This document shows positions 16,726 to 54,424 of a DNA stretch of 64,000 bases, one piece after another. The position numbers and the translations under genes were made by a program. Origin of the DNA: Aphelenchoides besseyi (Eukaryota; Nematoda; Chromadorea; Rhabditida; Aphelenchoididae); contig JAMPIQ010000001.1 in the NCBI GenBank assembly GCA_024699855.1, positions 3,162,001-3,226,000 of the forward strand, in the 5' to 3' direction. Under the pieces are notes generated by a model. It saw only the letters and a list, made by a program, of their open reading frames with translations, ran no database searches and was not told the DNA's origin. Within the stretch, counting starts at the first letter, position 1; each line of letters starts with the position of its first letter.

Positions 16726-18419
16726 TTATGTTGGATTCTTTGCTAAACGACGAATTGCAACTTCCAATGGATCACTGCGTAGACAAAAGGCTGCAAGCAG
16801 AATCCCAACAGAAATGGTAACAAGAAAGGTTGTTGAACCGATCAAAACTCCGAAACCAGCAACAGAAACGCAGAACTGTGATGTGTATTCTTCTTGAAAC
16901 TCTTCGGAAGTCAGTGCGGCTGTCCGAGGTTGAATTAATTGATTTAAATCTAAAACATCTCGGGAATTAGCTCTCGTGTTCTCTTAGTCAACCAAAGTTA
17001 TCATCAATGGAAGTTCCGGGATCGAGAACAACCAATTGAGGTGCGTGTAATCGCCAACTGCCATCTTTCGCATGCCGACGAGTTCGATTTCTTTGCGTTT
17101 GAGAAGAGCAATCCGGCGGCTAAATGAACGATGTTAAAATTTACATAAACTCATTTCTACGGTTAGTCGATCACATTCGCCGAGTTCTTTCATACAAACC
17201 GAAATAGAGCATTGAAATCCAACGTTATCTTGGTCAGGAAACTGAAGTTTTACGTATTTCATAGCAATACGACACGTTCACTCACTTTCACTACCAACGA
17301 CGAAACTGCGGCCGACAACTCGTGGTCTCGATAGTGCGGAGTGGGTAGAATGTCCGGATCTAATGTGCAACCTCTCTCATCGATTATCTCTTGCTTCCGG
17401 CCTTTTCCATCGTCGACTGTGCAGCTGTGAACAAGTAATCCATAGTGATTGCTCATTAGATCTCCGTTTCCTTTGCCCGACTTGCAAATCCACTCGTGAT
17501 TGGCTTGGTCGCCGACTCGAACGTGTGTCAGCGGTTTACCTTCGTTCGTAATTTTGTAAACACATGTTGGAGATGGCATATTGGATAACAGTTCAACAGT
17601 CGGTGGCATACTAACGCCCATTTGAGTTGTTACAATCTTCTCAGACTCCTGTAAATTTTATGTCAATGGCGACTAAGCAACATCCACCAAACCATGAAAA
17701 CACATTGAACACGATAAGCCCGATCAATTTTTGTAACAAATTGATGATGGAATGAGACAATCACGACGAAAGAAACCTGCATTGACGGAGGACTCAACTA
17801 AAACAACGAATTCAATTATGAATTCAATGTTGGGACTTACAATTCGATCTCTCTGAGCGTTGCAGGTTCCCATCGGAACGTCCAATTCAGCGATATTGAT
17901 GTTTCTGCGTCGTCTTGCGGAATCCGAGTTACAAGGAGCACAAACGAGCGGACATTTGCTCTTCAATGCTTCGGTTTTACTTTCTTGAGTATCTAGCCGT
18001 CGAAATTGTTTGTCCGGTTGATCGACTCCAATGTCTCCACCGTTCAAATACCTCCGCCAATTACTTCCGGATGCTCCAACATCGTGATTAACAGTTTTTG
18101 TTGCGTGTCTGCGAAGTGGATCGATTTCTATTCTATCGTCCGGAATCTCATTGGAATCTGTGGAAGCATCGGGTCCTTCAGCGACGTCGTAAATCCGAAC
18201 ACACTCAGATGTCGCCACAGCTCCTTTAACGAAAAGTCGACCTTTGAATGGTCGCTTCGTTGGGACTTCGAAATGAACGAAATCTTTCTGGCATTCGATC
18301 AACGGCGTTCCAACTACCGCATTGTCCAAATCATCGACGGCAACAATTTGGCTGATCAGAATTAGAAGATAAACCGTAGATAAATATTGACAGTAAGAAG
18401 GTTTCGAATGGCAATACAT
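16726..18419 (-). CDS. Cuticlin-like ZP-domain membrane protein (492 aa)
   Basis: Exons: complement(join(16726..16949,16993..17119,17161..17241,17286..17648,17693..17797,17841..18419)). ZP-domain proteins polymerise into extracellular matrix; in nematodes cuticlins line the cuticle or lumens. A signal peptide (YLLILISQIVA) is followed by the ZP start (ECQKDFVHFEVPTKRPFKGR). The hallmark HHQFVTKIDRAYRVQC block comes next, then ESEKIVTTQMGVSMPP, then LLVHSCTVDDGKG, and late cysteines in GFQCSISVCMKEL. A basic TRRHAK site may serve for furin-like cleavage. One transmembrane segment lies near the C-terminus (about 440-465), with a short basic tail. Unusual is a roughly 110-residue hydrophilic insertion, rich in Asp/Arg/Ser, between the first ZP strands and the FVTKIDRAY block. 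Confidence 0.9.
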
Positions 18420-40674: not shown

Positions 40675-41165
40675 TCAGTGGGCGTTGGATTCAGTTTTTG
40701 GTGGTTCCGTTTTGATGCCGAGCAAGCGCGAAGCAATCTTAATAAAAAAGAGAAGATTGTTGATCTGATCAGTTTTGAGCTTGATTCTGTCCTGGTCTTT
40801 TTGAGTTGCTTCGCCATGGATCGGTTTTTTCTAAAACGAAGATTGGTTAATTTAAGAGCTGGACTTACCAACTGGAGGAGCCGCTTTTGCATCTCCTCGA
40901 CAATCCTTTTGACCTCGCCCACTTGTTCCTTTGGAACGAGAATGGCAAGCGGTACTGAAAACAAGGATTAGAGACGTTGTCAATGAAATCACTTACCTTT
41001 TTTCTGCCGGTTTTGGCCGCTAGGACCTGATCCGCCTGTCGCGTGAGACGCGAGGAACGTGTTGATGGTGACTTAAGGAACCCAAACGAGTCCCACCCCT
41101 TCTCCCCTGTTCTAACTCATTATGCCAAATGTGGCGTCCTTTTATGCCCTACGTTTTCCCGTCAT
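40675..41165 (-). CDS. Small coiled-coil protein, unknown (109 aa)
   Basis: Model: complement(join(40675..40830,40869..40954,40997..41071,41153..41165)), all joins in phase. The last three exons are well supported by good splice sites. The 13-base first coding exon (MTGK) is the weakest part. The protein has a Gly/Ser linker (ATGGSGPSGQ), a helix (ILVPKEQVGEVKRIVEEMQ), and a second helix (DRIKLKTDQINNLLFFIKIA) ending SRLLGIKTEPP. Size and helical content suit a subunit of a larger complex (Mediator- or BLOC-like), but I cannot assign one. Confidence 0.5.
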
Positions 41166-41462
41166 CTCTTCAATCGTTGTTTTCCCCCATTTTTTGTTGT
41201 GATTCGCAAATGTTGTTTTGTTAAATCGCGACTATTGTTTGTAAAGGTTTATTAACCCAAGTTTGAGCTCAATCAAAGGTTCAAGGTTTATTCCAATCTC
41301 GACGGATACAATCAAATTGGTCATTGAGTGAGCAATGAGGATTCCGTGTTGGCCGCGCTAGGATCTTAGTTGTCTCTTCTACGTTTAGGCTTCTGTTAGA
41401 CGTTCGAACTGTGTTCATGGTTGCTGGCGGTTTTCGACTATTGGTCCTTCGTGATAACTTTG

Positions 41463-43496
41463 ATGGCTCAATCAAAAACAGCGATGAACGACAACATGGG
41501 CGACGAAGCCGAAAACGAGGACACCGGCGAAGTCCGCCTCAATGGCATCATCCTCAAGGACATCTTCGTGGCGATGATCGCTCGAAACTTCCACAAGTTG
41601 GGACGTCAAGCCGCCAACTCCAGCAAGTACAAAAAAATTTTGGTTCATGTGAACATCGCTCGCGACCGAAAGAAATGTCCGCTCCCAATTTTGCAGCACG
41701 ACTTACGGAAAGCGAAGCTAAACTTCGTGCGAGATGAGCGGAAGCCGCGTAACGAATGGGAATTGTCAATCTCCAACTTGGAAAACGCGCCTCTTCACAC
41801 GGGAGATCCGGACAACTGCGCGTTGAAGGACGACGGCGACGATGTCTGTAAGCAGTGCGCCGAGTATGGGGCCGAATCGATATCGTTCGCCAACGTCAAA
41901 TCCAAGAATCGTCCGCAAACGTCCGTCGGCGAAGAACCCACTAGCTCCGTACTCAAACGCCCTCGGCGCGACTCGACGAACGACGAAGATTACGTCGTTT
42001 GCCGACCCCGTTTGGGGATCGACCAGAGCCCGTTCAAGGGCAATTTGAAAGCGCTTGTCAAGCGCGAGGTGATTTTGCTCCAAATGGCGACGCTTCTCGA
42101 CCAAATCGAGAACGCGCAGAAACCCGGCTTGGGCTCGTCTTCGTGGGTGAAGCACATCGAGAGCTTGCCCGACGTGATGACTCGCGAACCAGTGGTTGTT
42201 TCCGCTGTCGAACTGCAGGACAACATTCAGGAGTTGCGAGATGACCTCGAGCGCGTAGAGTTGGAACTCCTGTCCAAACGTCAAGCCTTCGAATCCGCTC
42301 ACTCGAACTTCGTCGCTGAACAAGAGTTTATTCAACAATCGCGCGGTCAAATTGAAGAACTCGACAAGATCATCGCGAAGTTGAACAAGGAGTTGAAGGA
42401 GGTGCAAGACGAAATCTCGATTGCTCGCGAAGAGTCCGGCAAGGCGTCTCGAGAGTACGAAGAGAAGATATTGGAAGTCTCGGTCATGAAGGCCAACTAC
42501 GTCGACGAACACAATCAATGGGAGAAGATGCAGAAGGCGGTCGCTGCTGGCAAGAAAGAACTGCAGGAAATGGAAGTCAAGAAGCAGAATCTGATGACTG
42601 AGATCAATGAACTCAAGAAGTCCTCTTCCTCTACGCGCACTACGACTACGTCCGCTCCTACGACCGACAACACTCAACAGTCGTTGCGCGAACCTTCGCC
42701 CAAGTCCCCGCATTATCTGGAGAACCTGGCCAAAATCCTTCAGTTGAATTCCGCGGCTCCCGACAAAAACCAACCGCTCGTGAACGCCGACGTCCAGATG
42801 CGCTCGCCGATGGCTACGATCACTGGTAATCGTTCGCCGAGTCCTTTGCTCGTTGTCGACCCCACTTCTCCCGTTCAGTCGGCTTCCAATGAACTTGAGC
42901 AATTGTCTGTCTCCTCGGATGGTGAAGTGAGCTCCAGTGGCCACGACGAAGAATCGACCACGTCTTCTCGCAGTCCGGTCGATTTCAAAAAGTACAGTGC
43001 CCAATACGTCTTCGATCTGTACAAGAACGCCGCGCTTGATCAAAGTCGTCAATATGATCCCACAATGAACATACCCGTCATCCGATGCGCGTACGAAAGC
43101 AAATTCGGACAAACTGTAATCCTCCAAAATTACGGTGCTGTGGTGATGAATAACTTCGGCAACGCGCGCGAAGAGGCCGTCGAGTCGCTTATCGTCAAGG
43201 CGCTGACTCTTCCGGTTGCTTCTCGTGGACACAAAAGCATGCAGAAGGTTCTCAGTGGAATCGACTGCGGCTATGGCTCGGTCGACGAATTGTTCGCCGC
43301 CCACAGGGACATGGACAACCTCCTGCGCGGAATGAACGAGTTGCTCGCCGATCAAGAATATTGGCGTTTCTTGTTCCTGCTCTGCTTTCGTGCGATCAAT
43401 GGAGACCTGTTGGATGCGGCCGCTGAACCGCCCGTGAACGAGGACGAGGAGAACTTGGAGAAGCACAGAGTTGACTCGAATACAACGTCAACTTGA
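41463..43496 (+). CDS. Gag-position coiled-coil ORF of the BEL/Pao element (677 aa)
   Basis: An uninterrupted ORF from ATG at 41463 (an upstream TTG at 41421 would add 14 residues). The N-terminal 170 residues are basic and globular (LKDIFVAMIARNFHKLGRQ). Residues about 240-380 are a strong coiled coil (EEKILEVSVMKANYVDEHNQ), then a Ser/Thr/Pro linker, then a helical C-terminal domain (about 520-660, YVFDLYKNAALDQSR...FLFLLCFRAINGD) that could be a capsid-like domain. No zinc knuckle; those are in the pol frame. Codons end mostly in C or G (GTC, CTC, CGC), unlike pol and the neighbouring genes. It overlaps the open pol frame by 59 bases, in frame +1. A long antisense ORF here is a by-product of the codon bias. 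Confidence 0.75.
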   Translation: MAQSKTAMNDNMGDEAENEDTGEVRLNGIILKDIFVAMIARNFHKLGRQAANSSKYKKILVHVNIARDRKKCPLPILQHDLRKAKLNFVRDERKPRNEWELSISNLENAPLHTGDPDNCALKDDGDDVCKQCAEYGAESISFANVKSKNRPQTSVGEEPTSSVLKRPRRDSTNDEDYVVCRPRLGIDQSPFKGNLKALVKREVILLQMATLLDQIENAQKPGLGSSSWVKHIESLPDVMTREPVVVSAVELQDNIQELRDDLERVELELLSKRQAFESAHSNFVAEQEFIQQSRGQIEELDKIIAKLNKELKEVQDEISIAREESGKASREYEEKILEVSVMKANYVDEHNQWEKMQKAVAAGKKELQEMEVKKQNLMTEINELKKSSSSTRTTTTSAPTTDNTQQSLREPSPKSPHYLENLAKILQLNSAAPDKNQPLVNADVQMRSPMATITGNRSPSPLLVVDPTSPVQSASNELEQLSVSSDGEVSSSGHDEESTTSSRSPVDFKKYSAQYVFDLYKNAALDQSRQYDPTMNIPVIRCAYESKFGQTVILQNYGAVVMNNFGNAREEAVESLIVKALTLPVASRGHKSMQKVLSGIDCGYGSVDELFAAHRDMDNLLRGMNELLADQEYWRFLFLLCFRAINGDLLDAAAEPPVNEDEENLEKHRVDSNTTST

Positions 43497-46400
43497 GAGT
43501 TTGGGTTCACATCTTGATTCGACTTTGGCAACTCAGATCGTTACCAAGAAGCTGCCACACTTTGTGATTGTGGAGGTAGTAAAGGCAAAAGAAAAGTCGA
43601 ACGAGTGGAGTTTCGAACGTTTGGTGGCAGAGCTGGAAGTGATTCTGAAATCTCGTGAGGAAGTCGAACGGGTCGAAGGTACCAAGACCAGTGAGGTCAC
43701 CAAGAAACTTCCAGCTGCGAATCAGAAGAGTTTTGTGGCAGTGAAAGGGGTTTTTGAGTGCATCTTTTGTAAGCAAGTTGGACATTTCTCGGCAGAGTGT
43801 CCAACAATCATCGATCCAAAGGTTCGAAAAGGAATTTTGTCTCAGACAGGTCGTTGCTTCAAGTGCTTGTCCACTCAACATGGTTGTCGTCAATGTGATA
43901 AGGTATGTGCGGTGTGCCAAAAGCCGCATCACGCCGCCATCTGCTTCAATCGTTTGAAAGGAAAAGAGGGTCGAGCTGACGGGGTGAAAGTACCAGCGAC
44001 CGGTACAAACGCCACTCGACAATCAAAAGCAGTCGGAACGTATCAGGCATTCGGTCAAACCGAATCGGAGGGAAACGAATTACAAGAACCAATCGAGGTA
44101 ACGAAACGAGTGGCATACTCGTCTAACTCACACAAATCGGTGCTTCCAATCGCAATGATTGAAGTAATTAATCTTCGAACAAAACAGAAATCGGAAATCG
44201 CGGCTCTCTTGGACACGGGCAGTAATGAATCGTACATTACCACGGAGCTGCGTAAGGAATTGAACTTGGAAAGTAACGGAAAGACTACTGTTCGAATCGA
44301 TTGTTTCGGTGGTCAAACCGTTGCGAACATGGACGGAGAAGTAGTGAATTTGGGGATCCAAACGGCCAGTGGAGTGTTGAGTCTGGAGGCCTTAGCTGTT
44401 CCTCAGCTGATGTCAGCCACGTCGGTCACTCGCATTCGGGATGGTGAAGAGTTCACGACATATGAACAGCCAAAAATGTTGTTGGGAAAGAAGGAAGTTT
44501 GGTCGGTTTTGCGGATTCAACAGAAGACTACGGCGAAGGGCAGTCGTTTCATTGAAACTGCAGTGGGACCCGTTGTCGTGGTAGGTCCCGGGGAACAACA
44601 GACCGTTCAGACATATCACAATCATCGTGATACAGCAGAATACGACGAATACGGCACTCTGAAACAAATGTCGTCGATGTGGTTGCAAGATGGTCGGGCG
44701 ATTGTGCCGTTCTTTACAAAGATTTACCCATTGTCCAGTTTTTCGGTTTGCCCGAATGGAGTGTGGTATAAAGGAAATTTGTTTCGGACTTCGGAAGCGG
44801 CTTATCAGTGGGCGAAGGCTCAGTTCTTCGGGTTGTCAACCATCGCTCGTGAGATTTGGGAGGCCAAGACTCCTAATCGAGTTAAAGAAATCAGCAATCG
44901 AAAGATTCACGGTCATTCCCGTTTTCGAGCTTACAAGTGGAATGCGGTAAAATACCAAATCATGAAAGACGTTTGTCTCAAGAAATTCGAACAGAATTTC
45001 GGATTACGAGAAGCTCTCATGAGCACGCACGATGCGATTCTTGTCGAAGCGAGCAAAGACCGTGACTGGGGAGTAGGTGTCCGAATAGACCGAGTGAGAA
45101 ATAGTTACGAGTGGACCGGAGAGAATAATCTGGGAGCCATTTTGATGAGTGTTCGAGACGAGTTTCGTCAACGAGACCAAGCAATTCAAAGACCAAGGCA
45201 GGGTTGGTCGGGATTTCGAGGTCCTCTGCGAACGTATTTGATTCAATGTGAAAAGACATCGGAGAAGCAAGAAACGGAGGAGTCAGTCAGCAACTTCTGG
45301 GCGTTAGAAAGCGTGGGAATAAACTCGAAAGAAATGGAAGAGAAAATGGACAAGGTAATCGAACAGCAGTTTCGAGAGACCACCACGTTTGACAAGTCCA
45401 CAGGGCGGTATCAGGTGGAGTGGTTGTGGAACTCAAAACGAGATAAACTTCCAACGAACTTTGATATAGCTTTCTACCGAGCTAAGAGTACGCTGAATCG
45501 CTTGAGCAAAGAACCAGTGAAGTTCAATGCCTATCGAAAAGACTTTGAAAGTCAAGCGGAGAAGGGAACAATTGAGAAGGTCGTTTGGAAAAAAGTTGAA
45601 GGTCCAGAGCATTACTTGCCACATCAAGCTGTGTGGACGCCCCAAAAGGCTACCACTAAGTTGCGTGTGGTGTTTGATGCGTCGGCAAAGAAAGCAGGTC
45701 AATTGGCGTTGAACGACACCATGTATCGTGGACCGGACACATTACCTCTCCTTGTAGGAATTCTGATGCGATTCCGTCAGAAACCGGTGGCAGTGAGTAG
45801 TGATATCGAAAAGGCGTTTCTGCAGCTGGAATTGAAAGGTGCTGAACGAGATGCAGTTCGATTCATGCTTTCACGAGATTGGTCTAAACCGTTTGGTTCG
45901 GATAACCTGCAGATTTGGAGATTCACGTCGGTTTGTTTTGGGGTAATATGTAGTCCAGCGTTACTTGCTTTGGCGCTCCGATTGCATTTGCAAAATGATG
46001 AGAAGATTCTGCAGAACACTTACGTCGATAATGTTATCGTGAACTACGATACAATCGGGGAAGCAATTCGACAGTCGAAAGAACTCAAACAGAAGTTGAG
46101 CCAAGCTCATTTCAATTTGAGAGAGTTCTACTCGAATGGTGACGAGGTGATGCAGGAAATGAACCCGAACGAAAAGTCGACCAACACAAAAGTGTTGGGT
46201 CTAAAATGGGATTTGAAAAGGGATTCGATGGCAATTAAGACACCGAAGTTCAGGGGGCAGTACACGAAAAGAGCGGTTTTGTCGTACTTGGCCTCGTTTT
46301 ACGATCCATTGGGAATGGCAGCTCCGGCGACGGTGAATCTAAAACTCTTCCAACAGAATCTTTGGAAAGACGAGGTTTCGTGGGACGCAGTGATAAGTGA

Positions 46401-46821
46401 GCAAAGAAAAACGGAGCTTCAAAAACTGATAATGCCGGAAATCGAATTCGAGATTCCACGCGTTATGACGAGTGTCGAGTTGAAAAACTGTCGGTTAGTG
46501 GTCTTCTGCGATGCTTCCAAGAAAGCGTATGGAGCAGTCGCGTACGTTGTCAGCGAGGAAGAAAAGAGTCCGAAGCTGATATTTTCGAAAGTCAAGTTGG
46601 TACCAGCAAAAGGTGGAATGACAATTCCGAGAGCTGAACTCATGGCGTGTCTGGTTGGTGTTCGAATAAAGAAGTTCATTGAAAAGGAGCTGGGCGAATT
46701 CTCGAAGGTCATCGTGTGGTCAGATTCAAAAATTGTGTTGGGACAAATTGCTAACGAAAAGGAAAAGCAATCTGTTTTTGTGCAGCGTCGACTGGAGGAG
46801 ATTCGAGAACATCGAGAATAA
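43438..46821 (+). CDS. pol: BEL/Pao Pol polyprotein with inserted NADAR domain (to first in-frame stop)
   Basis: The frame is open from 43438 to the TAA at 46819. Counting residues from the TTG at 43471: the start resembles the end of a BEL gag domain (QRQLESLGSHLD...KLPHFVI). A CCHC knuckle CIFCKQVGHFSAEC (about 91-104) and two further Cys/His clusters follow. The protease has ALLDTGSNESYI (Asp near 248). NADAR occupies about 411-575. The RT runs from FWALESVGI (about 607) through RVVFDASAK to TYVDNVIV near 850; the catalytic Y-x-D-D appears as YVDN. RNase H has VVFCDASKKAYGAV, AELMACLVG and VWSDSKIVLG. There is no ATG at the start, so expression presumably needs a +1 frameshift from the upstream ORF. 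Confidence 0.9.
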   Translation, partial: TRTRRTWRSTELTRIQRQLESLGSHLDSTLATQIVTKKLPHFVIVEVVKAKEKSNEWSFERLVAELEVILKSREEVERVEGTKTSEVTKKLPAANQKSFVAVKGVFECIFCKQVGHFSAECPTIIDPKVRKGILSQTGRCFKCLSTQHGCRQCDKVCAVCQKPHHAAICFNRLKGKEGRADGVKVPATGTNATRQSKAVGTYQAFGQTESEGNELQEPIEVTKRVAYSSNSHKSVLPIAMIEVINLRTKQKSEIAALLDTGSNESYITTELRKELNLESNGKTTVRIDCFGGQTVANMDGEVVNLGIQTASGVLSLEALAVPQLMSATSVTRIRDGEEFTTYEQPKMLLGKKEVWSVLRIQQKTTAKGSRFIETAVGPVVVVGPGEQQTVQTYHNHRDTAEYDEYGTLKQMSSMWLQDGRAIVPFFTKIYPLSSFSVCPNGVWYKGNLFRTSEAAYQWAKAQFFGLSTIAREIWEAKTPNRVKEISNRKIHGHSRFRAYKWNAVKYQIMKDVCLKKFEQNFGLREALMSTHDAILVEASKDRDWGVGVRIDRVRNSYEWTGENNLGAILMSVRDEFRQRDQAIQRPRQGWSGFRGPLRTYLIQCEKTSEKQETEESVSNFWALESVGINSKEMEEKMDKVIEQQFRETTTFDKSTGRYQVEWLWNSKRDKLPTNFDIAFYRAKSTLNRLSKEPVKFNAYRKDFESQAEKGTIEKVVWKKVEGPEHYLPHQAVWTPQKATTKLRVVFDASAKKAGQLALNDTMYRGPDTLPLLVGILMRFRQKPVAVSSDIEKAFLQLELKGAERDAVRFMLSRDWSKPFGSDNLQIWRFTSVCFGVICSPALLALALRLHLQNDEKILQNTYVDNVIVNYDTIGEAIRQSKELKQKLSQAHFNLREFYSNGDEVMQEMNPNEKSTNTKVLGLKWDLKRDSMAIKTPKFRGQYTKRAVLSYLASFYDPLGMAAPATVNLKLFQQNLWKDEVSWDAVISEQRKTELQKLIMPEIEFEIPRVMTSVELKNCRLVVFCDASKKAYGAVAYVVSEEEKSPKLIFSKVKLVPAKGGMTIPRAELMACLVGVRIKKFIEKELGEFSKVIVWSDSKIVLGQIANEKEKQSVFVQRRLEEIREHRE
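44698..45195 (+). other. NADAR (YbiA/DUF1768) domain within the BEL/Pao polyprotein
   Basis: The segment shows the whole NADAR fold signature: PFF....YPLSSFSVCP (usual LSNF), FRTSEAAYQWAKA (the S-E-h-x-Y-Q-x-x-K core with its Glu and Lys), a W..VKYQIMKD helix and LKKFEQNFGLREALM. LVEASKDRDWGVG (usual LVEA-x(n)-D-x-x-WG-x-G) and GENNLGAILMSVRDEF close it. NADAR proteins act on NAD/ADP-ribose derivatives, and some remove ADP-ribose from guanine in DNA. The reading frame runs through from protease to RT without a break. The domain looks intact; only the LSNF Asn is changed to Ser. Confidence 0.92.
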
Positions 46822-48087
46822 GTGGAGTTCCGATACATTGACACGAAATGGAATCCGGCGGATGTTCTGAGTCGTGGTTCGGAATTGTCGGTATTGATGG
46901 TGAATGATTTGTGGTGGAAAGGTCCGTCGTTTCTGACCGAAGACTTCCAGCATTGGCCAGACGAGAACGTCGCGCAGAAAGATGATGTGATAGAAGTTCA
47001 AACATTGACGGCAGAAGTTCGCGGAGAAATGGTCCAGTACTCGTTTGTCGAGCCAAAAGTCGGAACGTGGAAACGGGCGGTCAACGTCGGGTGTGCCGTT
47101 CTGTCGGCAGTGGAGAAATTCCGAAAACAAAAAGAAGCCGAGTCGAATGAAAAGGTAGCTCGAGTCGTTCAGCTGTTGATTAAGGACGCTCAGAAGCGCC
47201 ATCCACCAAGTAAACGAAAAGAATTGAAGTTCCGAATGTTTGAGGATGAAAACGGAGTGATTCGATGTCGTAGTCGGCTCCCGGAGAAAGTAGTCGGTCG
47301 TGAGATTGCAAGTCCAATCTGGTTACCGGATGAGTCGGAGGTGATGGAGAAGTTCGTTCGACACACTCATGAAGAATTGTGCCACGGTGGGGTTCAGACG
47401 ATTTTGGCGACGTTGCGATCAACCTAATGGGTCTCGTCTTCGACAGTCAAGAAAGCGTTGCAAAAATGTTTGCGCTGTCGATATTTTAATGCAAAACCTT
47501 TCTGGGCTCCGGTTGGGGACTTGCCAAAGGACCGAGTTGAGGCTGGCCGACCATTCGAGAGTACGGGAGTGGATTTGATGGGTCCGATTCAGTTGGCAGA
47601 AAATCAGGTGTACGTTGCGCTATTCACATGCCTCAAAGTTCGAGCAGTCCACTTGGAAGTTCTACGTGACACGACCACCGAGCATTTCGTTCTTGCTTTC
47701 GATAGATTCGTGGCTCGTCGGGGTCTTCCTCGAATGATGTTCAGTGACAACGCGACCAATTTCCAGTTGGCCAGCAAGTGCTTCAACGATCGGTTTCGAG
47801 TCGAGGGTTGTCAGTGGAACTTCACGACTCCTAGAGCTCCGTGGCGAGGCGGTAGTTGGGAACGACTGATTGGCAACGTCAAAACGGCATTAAAGAAAAG
47901 TCAAGGTCGAAAGAAACTGACGATGTGGGAATTCATGACGTTGATAACTCGCATTGAAGCTACGGTTAATGCTCGACCGTTGTGTTCAGTCAAAGAAGAG
48001 GTCGGTTTCGAGATTCTTCGTCCCGTTGATTTTTTGTGTCCACTCAGCAATCGACACGTTGAGGATCCTCTCGAGGATGAGACGATT
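46822..48087 (+). pseudogene. Rest of Pol: RNase H end and integrase, after in-frame stop codons
   Basis: The same frame continues after TAA 46819: the end of RNase H (KWNPADVLSRG) and the integrase zinc-binding domain (VRHTHEELCHGG ... CLRCRYFN, His/His/Cys/Cys). The second TAA, at 47425, lies inside this zinc domain. The integrase core has its three acidic residues in GVDLMGPIQ, FSDNATNFQ and WRGGSWERLIG. The C-terminal integrase region enters the N gap. Nonsense mutations, not frameshifts, are the only lesions seen. Confidence 0.85.
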
Positions 48088-48187
48088 NNNNNNNNNNNNN
48101 NNNNNNNNNNNNNNNNNNNNNNNNNNNNNNNNNNNNNNNNNNNNNNNNNNNNNNNNNNNNNNNNNNNNNNNNNNNNNNNNNNNNNNN
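48088..48187. other. Assembly gap (100 N)
   Basis: Exactly 100 undetermined bases, the usual placeholder for a gap of unknown size. The BEL/Pao integrase reads into its left side and the mariner-type terminal repeat starts at its right side. The true join between the two elements is therefore not known. Confidence 0.98.
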
Positions 48188-48405
48188 ATTTCAAACGCTC
48201 ACTAAAAATCCATTTCTTAACCGATTCTCATGCAATTTTTTTTAATCGATAGAAAAAAAGCGGAATCTTTGTTCAGCATCTCGAAATTTGCTAAATTCGA
48301 CGGCACAAACGAGAAATTTGCATACTGGCAAAATGCGTCAATTTTTCCAAAAATTTGCACACAGTTAAGGGAATGCGTGTGGTCTTTTTTCTTTTTTTCA
48401 ACATT
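48188..48405 (+). repeat. Left terminal inverted repeat of the mariner-type element
   Basis: It pairs with 49618-49832 on the opposite strand, with only scattered differences (for example ACAAACGAG versus ACAACCGAG). Its outer tip is lost in the N gap. Confidence 0.85.
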
Positions 48406-49617
48406 TTTATCGTTCAAAGTTCGACGTGTTTTTTCCACCATTTTCAATCACTTTTTGGAGACGACGAGCGTAACCGTCGATTGAACGATCAATGAATTCT
48501 TGACTCAAATTTGCAAACTCAACTTCAATTCGAGCTTCCAACTCATCGAGGTTTTCCGGTACGGTCGGTACACGCGTTCTTTGATGTAACCCCATAAAAA
48601 AAAGTCGCACGGAGTGAGATCAGGACTGTATGGTGGCCATGGATAAGGAGCAATCAATTCACCACCGCCGCGGCCCATCCATCGTCCAGGAAAGTTTTCG
48701 TTTAGCCATTGTCGCACGCGAATTGTGAAATGAGGTGGTGCACCGTCGTGCATGAATGTGACAAACTCTTCGAGAGTAGTGGCTTGAAGCGACGGAAACA
48801 CACGATTTTGCAACATTTGAAGATACGAATCTCCGGTGATGTTTTTCGCGTGTAAAAAACGGACCAATGACGCCAATTTTTCCAATTGCTGCCCATACGG
48901 TTAATCTTGGGGAATGAAGGGGCTTTTCGCGATGCCTGGCATTGAAAGATTTTTTGGGTTTTTTGTTTTCTCATACCATTTTGGATTGGTATCATTCCAG
49001 TAACGAAAATTGTGGTGATTAACATCACCATTAATCGAAAAATGAGCTTCGTCAGAGAAAACCACACTTGAAAGAAATTCGGGCGAATTTTGGATAAGCG
49101 TCAATTGAGATTGAGCAAAAGAACGTCGAGTCAAGCAATGCTCAGGTTTCATTTCATGAACCAAATTCATTTTGTAGGGGTGATGATTTTCGTTCTGAAT
49201 TCACGTTTCATTAACGATTTGAACAAAAAAGGAAATTTGCCTTCAAAAATTCGGTGGACTGTTGACCTTGACGGTGTTGTTTCAAGATTTGCAAGCGACC
49301 GAACTGATTGATTCGGATCAGCAGCAATCAAACGAAGAACTTCGGCCACAACTTCAGGTGTTTGGGCCGTTCTGAGAAAGCAAATGAGTGAAGAAACAAA
49401 ATTGCAAGAAACTTCTCATGAATTCGTTTGTTTTTTGTTGCAATGTCCTCGTTCCAAAAACTTATCAAACCAAATCGAAAAATTCGAAGTGCTAGGAACA
49501 GGAGCACGTTGATTCAATCCGTAATGTCGTCTAAATGCTCGTATGACCATGACCGGACTTCTTGTCTTCGCATATTCGATAACACAGAACGCCTTTTGTT
49601 CGGCAGACCAACTCATG

Positions 49618-49856
49618 TTTTTGAAAAAAAGAAAAGACCACACGCATTCCCTTAACTGTGTGCAAATTTTTGGAAAAATTAACGCATTTTGCCAGTATGC
49701 AAATTTCTCGGTTGTGCCGTCGAATTTGGCAAATTTCGAGATGCTGAACAAAGATTCCGCTTTTTTTCTATCGATTAAAAAAATTGCATGAGAATCGGTT
49801 AAGAAATGGATTTTTAGTGAGCGTTTGAAATCGTCAGTTTGTGGAGAGACACCCTG
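49618..49856 (-). repeat. Right terminal inverted repeat of the mariner-type element
   Basis: It contains the complete outer tip (CAGGGTGTCTCTCCACAAAC on the minus strand). The transposase start codon at 49616 lies just inside it. Confidence 0.85.
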
Positions 49857-53681: not shown

Positions 53682-54424
53682 TGGCGGAAGCGAATGTTGT
53701 CTCTAACTCTTGACTCCAGTTTGAGCAAGGTACGAAAACAAGTGTTTTATTCTTCTCAAACTTGAGTTAATAAACCTTTTTATACAACAAAAGACACGCC
53801 CACGGATAAGCGCTCGAAGAGTTAAGGGAATAACCAATTAACATCAACAAATAACAAAACAACGAGAACAGAAAGGCAAGAGGCCGACAAATGGCCGGCG
53901 GAAAAACTCAAAATGGGCAAAAACAGACTGACGGCTGGCGAACAACACTCACAGGTGAAACAGCTTACAAGCCTCCAAACAATCGGTGTCGGACAAACGG
54001 GCGGATCAACGGCTTATTGCGCAACAATTTCCGGAGGTGATTCAGGACTAGACTGTCCGGATCTTTCGGTGTTTTTGTGTTGCTGATTGCACAAAAAGTG
54101 TTGAATTTTCTTGAACACTCAATTGATTTAAATAATCATTAACAACGGAATCGTTATTATCAACAACAGAATTGTTCGGATTTAACACGGAAATGGACGA
54201 CATTTTGTTTTGTGTCTTTATTTTGTGTTCAATTGCAGTTGCAGTGTCGTTGTCACTAGCAAATTTGTTAGATGCTTAAAAAATCGTTTTTACTTTGATT
54301 CCAGATGCTGTTAAAGTCCGGTTCTTCGTCAACATCATAAACAATCAGCGTATCGTTTAATTGACATTTGAAGTAGTTGGCAAAACAAACGGAGTTTTTT
54401 CGAAGTGTGCTAACAAAATGTTCT

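Follow-up and report, generated by a model that had tools for sequence, protein, structure and literature searches.

A NADAR domain between protease and reverse transcriptase in a defective BEL/Pao retrotransposon copy of the nematode Aphelenchoides besseyi

Results

The window analysed here is a stretch of 64,000 nucleotides from Aphelenchoides besseyi (contig JAMPIQ010000001.1, positions 3,162,001 to 3,226,000 of the forward strand), whose genome assembly comprises 47.4 Mb in 31 contigs; all positions below are those of the window. It contains a copy of a BEL/Pao long terminal repeat (LTR) retrotransposon with a NADAR domain cleanly inserted into its open frame. This single frame of 1127 codons (43438-46818) encodes three zinc-knuckle-like motifs (43759-43944), an aspartic protease, the NADAR domain, a reverse transcriptase (RT) and the start of an RNase H. 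An initial annotation of the same DNA had described one uninterrupted frame from the zinc knuckles to RNase H, which is accurate through the RT, whereas a TAA at 46819-46821 stops the frame inside the RNase H region. The order protease, RT, RNase H, integrase and the Pao peptidase domain are those of BEL/Pao elements (Belpaoviridae), represented in this genome by loci L010-L015, whose RTs are 50-55% identical to that of the window. The window element differs from these loci by the NADAR insert between protease and RT and by an open reading frame, ORF1, that replaces the N-terminus of Gag.

Assignment to BEL/Pao is based on the Pao-type Pol match (Table 1) and on the best-scoring other RT place of the genome, which is 54% identical. 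The matches to the protease (PF13650, 24.9 bits, cut-off 24.3), the NADAR domain and the Pao peptidase lie above the curated Pfam cut-offs. Those to the integrase core, to zf-CCHC (one match in the zinc-knuckle region) and to the RT (PF00078, 23.1 bits, cut-off 29.6) lie below, the RT being alignable to dozens of relatives. The nematode origin of the window is indicated by spliced leader 1 (SL1) RNA genes and a cuticlin N-terminal domain. The former match Rfam RF00198 in three of five loci searched, at about 43 bits and below the gathering score of 75; the latter lies at 17724-18416, and the sequence from there to the element is free of N (two of seven open frames scanned matched any family).

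Table 1. Features of the element and its surroundings in the window
Feature	Position	Strand	Basis or remark
U3-like part of the 5' LTR (putative)	41037..41245	+	94% identity to one other genomic place, C3:4557188-4557411
Exact copy of the host SL1 spliced leader	41246..41267	+	78 exact genome copies, 0 for the reversed control
Dispersed repeat, later insertion between spliced leader and ORF1	41280..41465	+	11 further near-full genome copies
ORF1, about 670 residues	41484..43496	+	occupies the place of the relatives' Gag N-terminal part
C-terminal Gag part, zinc-knuckle-like motifs	43477..44160	+	first stretch alignable to relatives
Aspartic protease, DTGS at 44212	44161..44577	+	PF13650 E 3.3e-5; aligned in 23 of 29 relatives
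Insert of 206 residues, not in relatives	44578..45195	+	protease-to-RT spacing, 23 of 29 loci with both
NADAR/YbiA domain	44686..45168	+	PF08719 E 1.4e-34, alignments, model and fold match
Reverse transcriptase, box YVDN	45196..46302	+	PF00078 E 6.7e-5 (below curated cut-off); 65 genome matches
RNase H/Pao region, in-frame TAA at 46819-46821	46303..47424	+	PF05380 E 1.5e-43
Integrase part, cut by assembly gap	47428..48087	+	rve E 9.7e-4 (below curated cut-off); preceded by in-frame TAA 47425-47427
Run of 100 N, read as assembly gap	48088..48187	.	3' end of the element not visible

The NADAR domain proposed in the initial annotation for 44698-45195 was confirmed by the profile search suggested there: PF08719 matched residues 14-157 of this segment (44737-45168) with 120.2 bits against a cut-off of 35.1. 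The NCBIfam model TIGR02464, a riboflavin-intermediate N-glycosidase, also matched the insert (114.3 bits, cut-off 73.7). The segment thus holds the domain, whereas similarity to host NADARs already begins at about 44686 and the whole insert starts at 44578.

In the NADAR of P. nicotianae, residues E43, K50, E125, D130 and W133 have been described as ligand-binding or catalytic (PMC11543638). Their counterparts in the element by alignment are E33 (44794), K40 (44815), E117 (45046), D121 (45058) and W124 (45067), so that the earlier impression of intact key residues holds for the five that were checked. All five are invariant across 22 aligned rows, namely the element, three NADARs of viral contigs and 18 of bacteria, retrieved with two seed proteins (18 of the 23 retrieved loci were taken; L097, L104, L109, L114 and L116 were left out). 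The catalytic glutamate and lysine plus the YbiA-family glutamate place the domain in the YbiA family. Both glutamates are also kept in three of five aligned host NADAR domains and have been lost in L006 and L008. These two host paralogues are possible non-enzymatic binders.

The predicted model of the domain has a mean predicted local distance difference test score (pLDDT) of 89.8 and shows the YbiA fold. In Foldseek, the only PDB matches below 0.001 were 8bau (E 1.1e-6, template modelling score 0.77), a solved NADAR-ADP-ribose complex, and 2b3w (E 2.3e-5). Viral models gave 46 matches below 0.001, including polyproteins of Wenling nido-like virus 1 and yellow head virus type 8 and the Ingleside virus polymerase. 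Judged by the five residues and the predicted fold, the enzyme domain is apparently intact.

Of 68 candidates in a genome-wide RT search, 65 were matches, and 30 BEL/Pao loci were extracted, including that of the window. Both protease and RT could be located in 23 of the 29 others; in the remaining six (L018, L025, L031, L032, L036, L037) no protease lay within the fetched flank. The insert is in none of the 23 measurable relatives. Their protease-to-RT distance is 202-210 residues shorter than in the window in 20 cases and shorter by 187, 193 and 262 residues in the other three, where the alignments are partial. The statement of the initial annotation that BEL/Pao elements normally go from protease straight to RT is true of these relatives. 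A NADAR query at an E value of 1 against 36 loci besides the window had matches in the host NADAR loci L002-L008 alone; the 29 BEL/Pao loci, searched together with 1.5 kb flanks, gave none. Scans of viral contigs with the NADAR piece and with the RT piece likewise revealed no relative.

A false joining of NADAR and BEL/Pao sequence by assembly or mapping could in principle produce such a singular arrangement, and a run of 100 N does lie 3 kb downstream, where it cuts the integrase. However, positions 1 to 48087 are free of N, the insert meets its flanks in frame at either end, and there is no second genomic DNA match that could have served as source of a mis-join. We therefore consider an artefact extremely improbable. 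Directly 3' of the N run, positions 48188-49831 hold an element of 1.6 kb whose inverted arms are about 210 bases long.

The RT of the window carries YVDN instead of YVDD. We dismissed this as a sign of a dead RT because 24 of the 25 other loci with a recognizable box (among L009-L038) also have YVDN, including L017 with its identical LTRs; L035 has YVDD, and no box was found in L018, L023, L025 and L030. The 65 RT matches collapse to 47 loci, six of which have an exact SL1 within 9 kb on both sides, whereas random positions give 0.08 on average and 2 at most. The LTRs of L017 (L072, L073), identical at 477 of 477 positions, contain SL1, as do those of L019 (L075, L076), in each case 51 bases short of where the shared stretch ends. 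A similar spliced leader in Pao elements has been described for Brugia malayi (PMC7181701). SL1 could serve as the repeat used for the first strand transfer. A further SL1-like sequence lies on the minus strand at 53745-53787, perhaps as remnant of another retroelement of this kind.

BEL/Pao elements are flanked by LTRs of 0.2-1.2 kb. For the window copy itself no direct repeat representing an LTR pair was found: only the U3-like stretch with SL1 at 41037-41267 is present, and the 3' side is lost at the gap. The related genomic place C3:4557188-4557411 likewise runs into a variant spliced-leader sequence. The 186-base repeat at 41280-41465 was ruled out as an LTR, as it belongs to a dispersed repeat and is flanked by a target duplication of its own, an 11-base direct repeat recognized by eye (41268-41278 and 41466-41476). 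Six of its 11 other near-full copies are 98-100% identical, and the other copies extend past the end of this one. Apart from this repeat, SL1 leads almost directly into the ATG of ORF1, as in a trans-spliced mRNA.

These features of the 5' end also bear on whether the locus might be a domesticated host gene derived from a retroelement, with NADAR serving the worm. A single copy with a long open frame and with SL1 and an ATG upstream would fit. Yet two in-frame stops interrupt the RNase H-integrase part, SL1 is part of the genomic sequence here just as it is in other LTRs, and the relatives look like ordinary elements; we regard domestication as improbable.

ORF1 has no recognized domain (weak coiled-coil-type matches only, below cut-off) and no match besides itself in the genome at an E value of 0.001. 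The predicted model of its C-terminal part reaches a pLDDT of 37.4, and the best match of ORF1 to a solved structure has an E value of 0.86. The G+C content at its third codon positions (GC3) is 0.67, compared to 0.45-0.54 for the pol segments. ORF1 and pol overlap at 43438-43496 in different frames, and continuing from ORF1 into pol would require a +1 shift close to the ORF1 stop. Template switching at the spliced-leader sequence may be how ORF1 was acquired. A long antisense open frame lies within ORF1 (41766-43466).

PF08719 gave 16 exon-sized matches over the genome, 12 of them above the cut-off, including that in the window. Among 23 compared NADARs, the host gene L003 scores best with the element (115 bits, 41% identity, shared DGR...FFTKxY...VCPNG), followed by host L002 with 103 bits. 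Host L003, L004 and L008 have introns at two common places inside the domain, and the element is free of introns. As the best score is that of a host gene whose introns are missing from the insert, capture from a spliced host mRNA is the simplest reading of the sequence comparison. A kept active site at 41% identity implies constraint over much of the divergence, be it before or after capture. The base composition of the insert resembles that of flanking pol, but this is weak evidence, since the exons of host NADARs lie close to these values too; as a measure of the age of the insertion, composition was uninformative.

Discussion

We propose that a BEL/Pao lineage took up the coding part of a NADAR gene from its host, most likely via a spliced mRNA during reverse transcription, and that this part landed in frame between protease and RT. 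The protease of the element would have released the domain, or the domain would have stayed fused to the RT, and it would have been packaged with Gag-Pol in the virus-like particle, beside RNA and nascent cDNA; release and packaging are modelled on what PMC8742986 assumes for Belpaoviridae. There, NADAR would cleave ADP-ribose off guanine bases in the nucleic acid of the element, or off other targets that carry this modification, and thereby undo a host modification that blocks reverse transcription or integration. The window copy would now be a defective, probably young remnant of a NADAR-carrying lineage. We put this account, from capture of the host NADAR to protection of the element by de-ADP-ribosylation, forward tentatively, as a serious possibility that stops short of being probable. 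The idea that the lineage was equipped with a guanine ADP-ribosyl hydrolase, released by the protease and packaged into the particle, as an enzyme against restriction by the host appears doubtful to us. By analogy, protection of the element against ADP-ribosylation is nevertheless plausible. It agrees with proposals for NADARs in RNA-virus polyproteins: a survey argues that the NADARs of eukaryotic RNA viruses remove host-added ADP-ribose from macromolecules (PMC9503650).

Several findings weigh against this account. The genome has only one DNA match to the insert, and a single unique copy yields no ratio of nonsynonymous to synonymous substitution rates (dN/dS) that could prove selection after capture. 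The initial annotation had named a segment unique to this copy, together with a dN/dS near 1 across related elements, as what would speak against its idea; the first is what we found (one DNA match, no NADAR in the 29 other loci), and it weakens the idea. Conservation of NADAR across copies of a lineage, as in Ectocarpus, is likewise not seen, as this genome holds one copy. The copy has two in-frame TAA codons, one inside the RNase H region and one before the integrase (47425-47427). The Gag N-terminus of three relatives (L079-L081), which is 53-95% alike among the relatives themselves as a control, was not found in the window copy, so that of the Gag expected for BEL/Pao, with capsid and nucleocapsid parts, only the zinc-knuckle-like motifs are present. 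BEL/Pao elements have a primer-binding site for tRNA-Gly or tRNA-Arg; a motif presumed to be of the tRNA-Gly type, which L017 and L019 contain, is absent from 41200-41799.

The host origin of the domain is affected by further such findings. With the element, the NADAR of a Vibrio phage reaches nearly the same score as the third host gene, L004 (94.0 and 93.2 bits). Host L002 has one intron, located elsewhere, and L006 is uninterrupted over the domain; an intronless donor is therefore possible. The loop from the last glutamate to the tryptophan is one residue shorter in the element than in four of five host rows, L008 sharing the shortened form, and than in all 21 others of the 22-row alignment. 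In a tree of 16 rows, the element pairs with NADARs of a Streptomyces phage and of Enterococcus (support 84/90, long branches), both of which are short-loop NADARs. A second tree had 21 rows, without those of host L006, host L008 and the Bobb phage; the element and the three host genes came together in none of its 200 bootstrap replicates. A host clade is not rejected by the approximately unbiased test (p-AU 0.10 for the element with three host genes, 0.32 for the element with L003). No alignment included host loci L005 and L007, which are near-copies of L003 and L006. The trees count against a host origin more than for it, but they do not resolve the placement and were set aside as evidence of origin.

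The enzymes of the host give a divided picture. DarT (PF14487) had no match in the genome, searched in six frames exon by exon, with a control that matched in one of 14 genomes. PARP-type catalytic domains gave ten exon-sized matches, and the presence of such enzymes in the host favours the account. A guanine-specific ADP-ribosyltransferase of this host is at present hypothetical, which counts against it.

Given its rearrangements, we class the window copy as a rearranged, defective BEL/Pao member placed by its Pol, and the small number of lesions suggests a young remnant. The same observations could mean that the NADAR piece is a mere passenger, acquired by template switching, in frame by chance and never of advantage, and intact because capture or copy is recent. 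The confinement of NADAR to one copy, the in-frame stops in this copy and the presence of a second foreign-looking module, ORF1 with its deviating GC3, would all be expected then. Against this, the identity of the insert to the closest host NADAR detected is just 41%, and yet the insert has 206 open codons and all five checked catalytic residues; its resemblance to flanking pol in composition points in the same direction, if weakly. On balance we regard a passenger as a real possibility, somewhat less probable than the account proposed above.

NADAR domains have been recruited in parallel by other RNA-based replicons, which favours our preferred account, capture from the host for protection of the element. 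The initial annotation had left open whether such a fusion has been reported. NADARs in a Gypsy lineage of Ectocarpus (e.g. Gypsy-12_Ec32) and in ORF1 of oyster Tx1 long interspersed nuclear elements (LINEs) are in print (PMC12477816), whereas no BEL/Pao element with NADAR was among the matches listed in open-licence literature; BEL/Pao is a third such retrotransposon group after Gypsy and Tx1. The Ectocarpus elements are likewise LTR retrotransposons with a YbiA-family NADAR in Pol, but the window element belongs to BEL/Pao and to a nematode, carries NADAR between protease and RT, exists in one copy and scores best with a host gene. The Tx1 LINEs of Crassostrea gigas are also invertebrate retrotransposons that recruited NADAR, yet they are non-LTR elements with the domain in ORF1 (PMC12477816). 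NADARs are further embedded in polyproteins of nidoviruses from nematodes, crustaceans and insects, and those of nidoviruses, hepe-like viruses and picornaviruses resemble our case as parts of polyproteins of RNA-based replicons of invertebrates, nematodes included; these are positive-strand RNA viruses, however, and do not use reverse transcription (PMC9503650). With the DarT1-NADAR toxin-antitoxin system (PMC11543638), the element has the fold and most catalytic residues in common. It differs by the YbiA-type glutamate in place of the DarT1-associated aspartate and by a host genome in which DarT was not found.

The substrate might also be a different one. NADAR could act on soluble ADP-ribose derivatives, NAD-derived RNA ends or YbiA-like N-glycosidic substrates, that is, on small molecules or in RNA processing. 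The insert passes the N-glycosidase model, RNA processing has been suggested for the brown-algal and oyster elements (PMC12477816), and small-molecule functions have been proposed for phage NADARs (PMC9503650). On the other hand, the NADARs tested are reported to de-ADP-ribosylate guanine in vitro, although not all of them rescue DarT1 toxicity (PMC11543638, PMC11125620). We consider such a role unlikely.

The isolated NADAR domain is a small, testable object. To our knowledge, no animal defence by nucleic-acid ADP-ribosylation has been established. The presence of NADAR in Gypsy and Tx1 elements, as in print, in BEL/Pao, as described here, and in RNA-virus polyproteins amounts to repeated recruitment by RNA-based replicons and points to a shared pressure, perhaps nucleic-acid ADP-ribosylation. 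If the lineage did carry its NADAR as a packaged anti-restriction enzyme, nematodes would have an unrecognized defence that ADP-ribosylates the RNA or cDNA of retroelements, and their several host NADAR genes would be the self-protection side of it.
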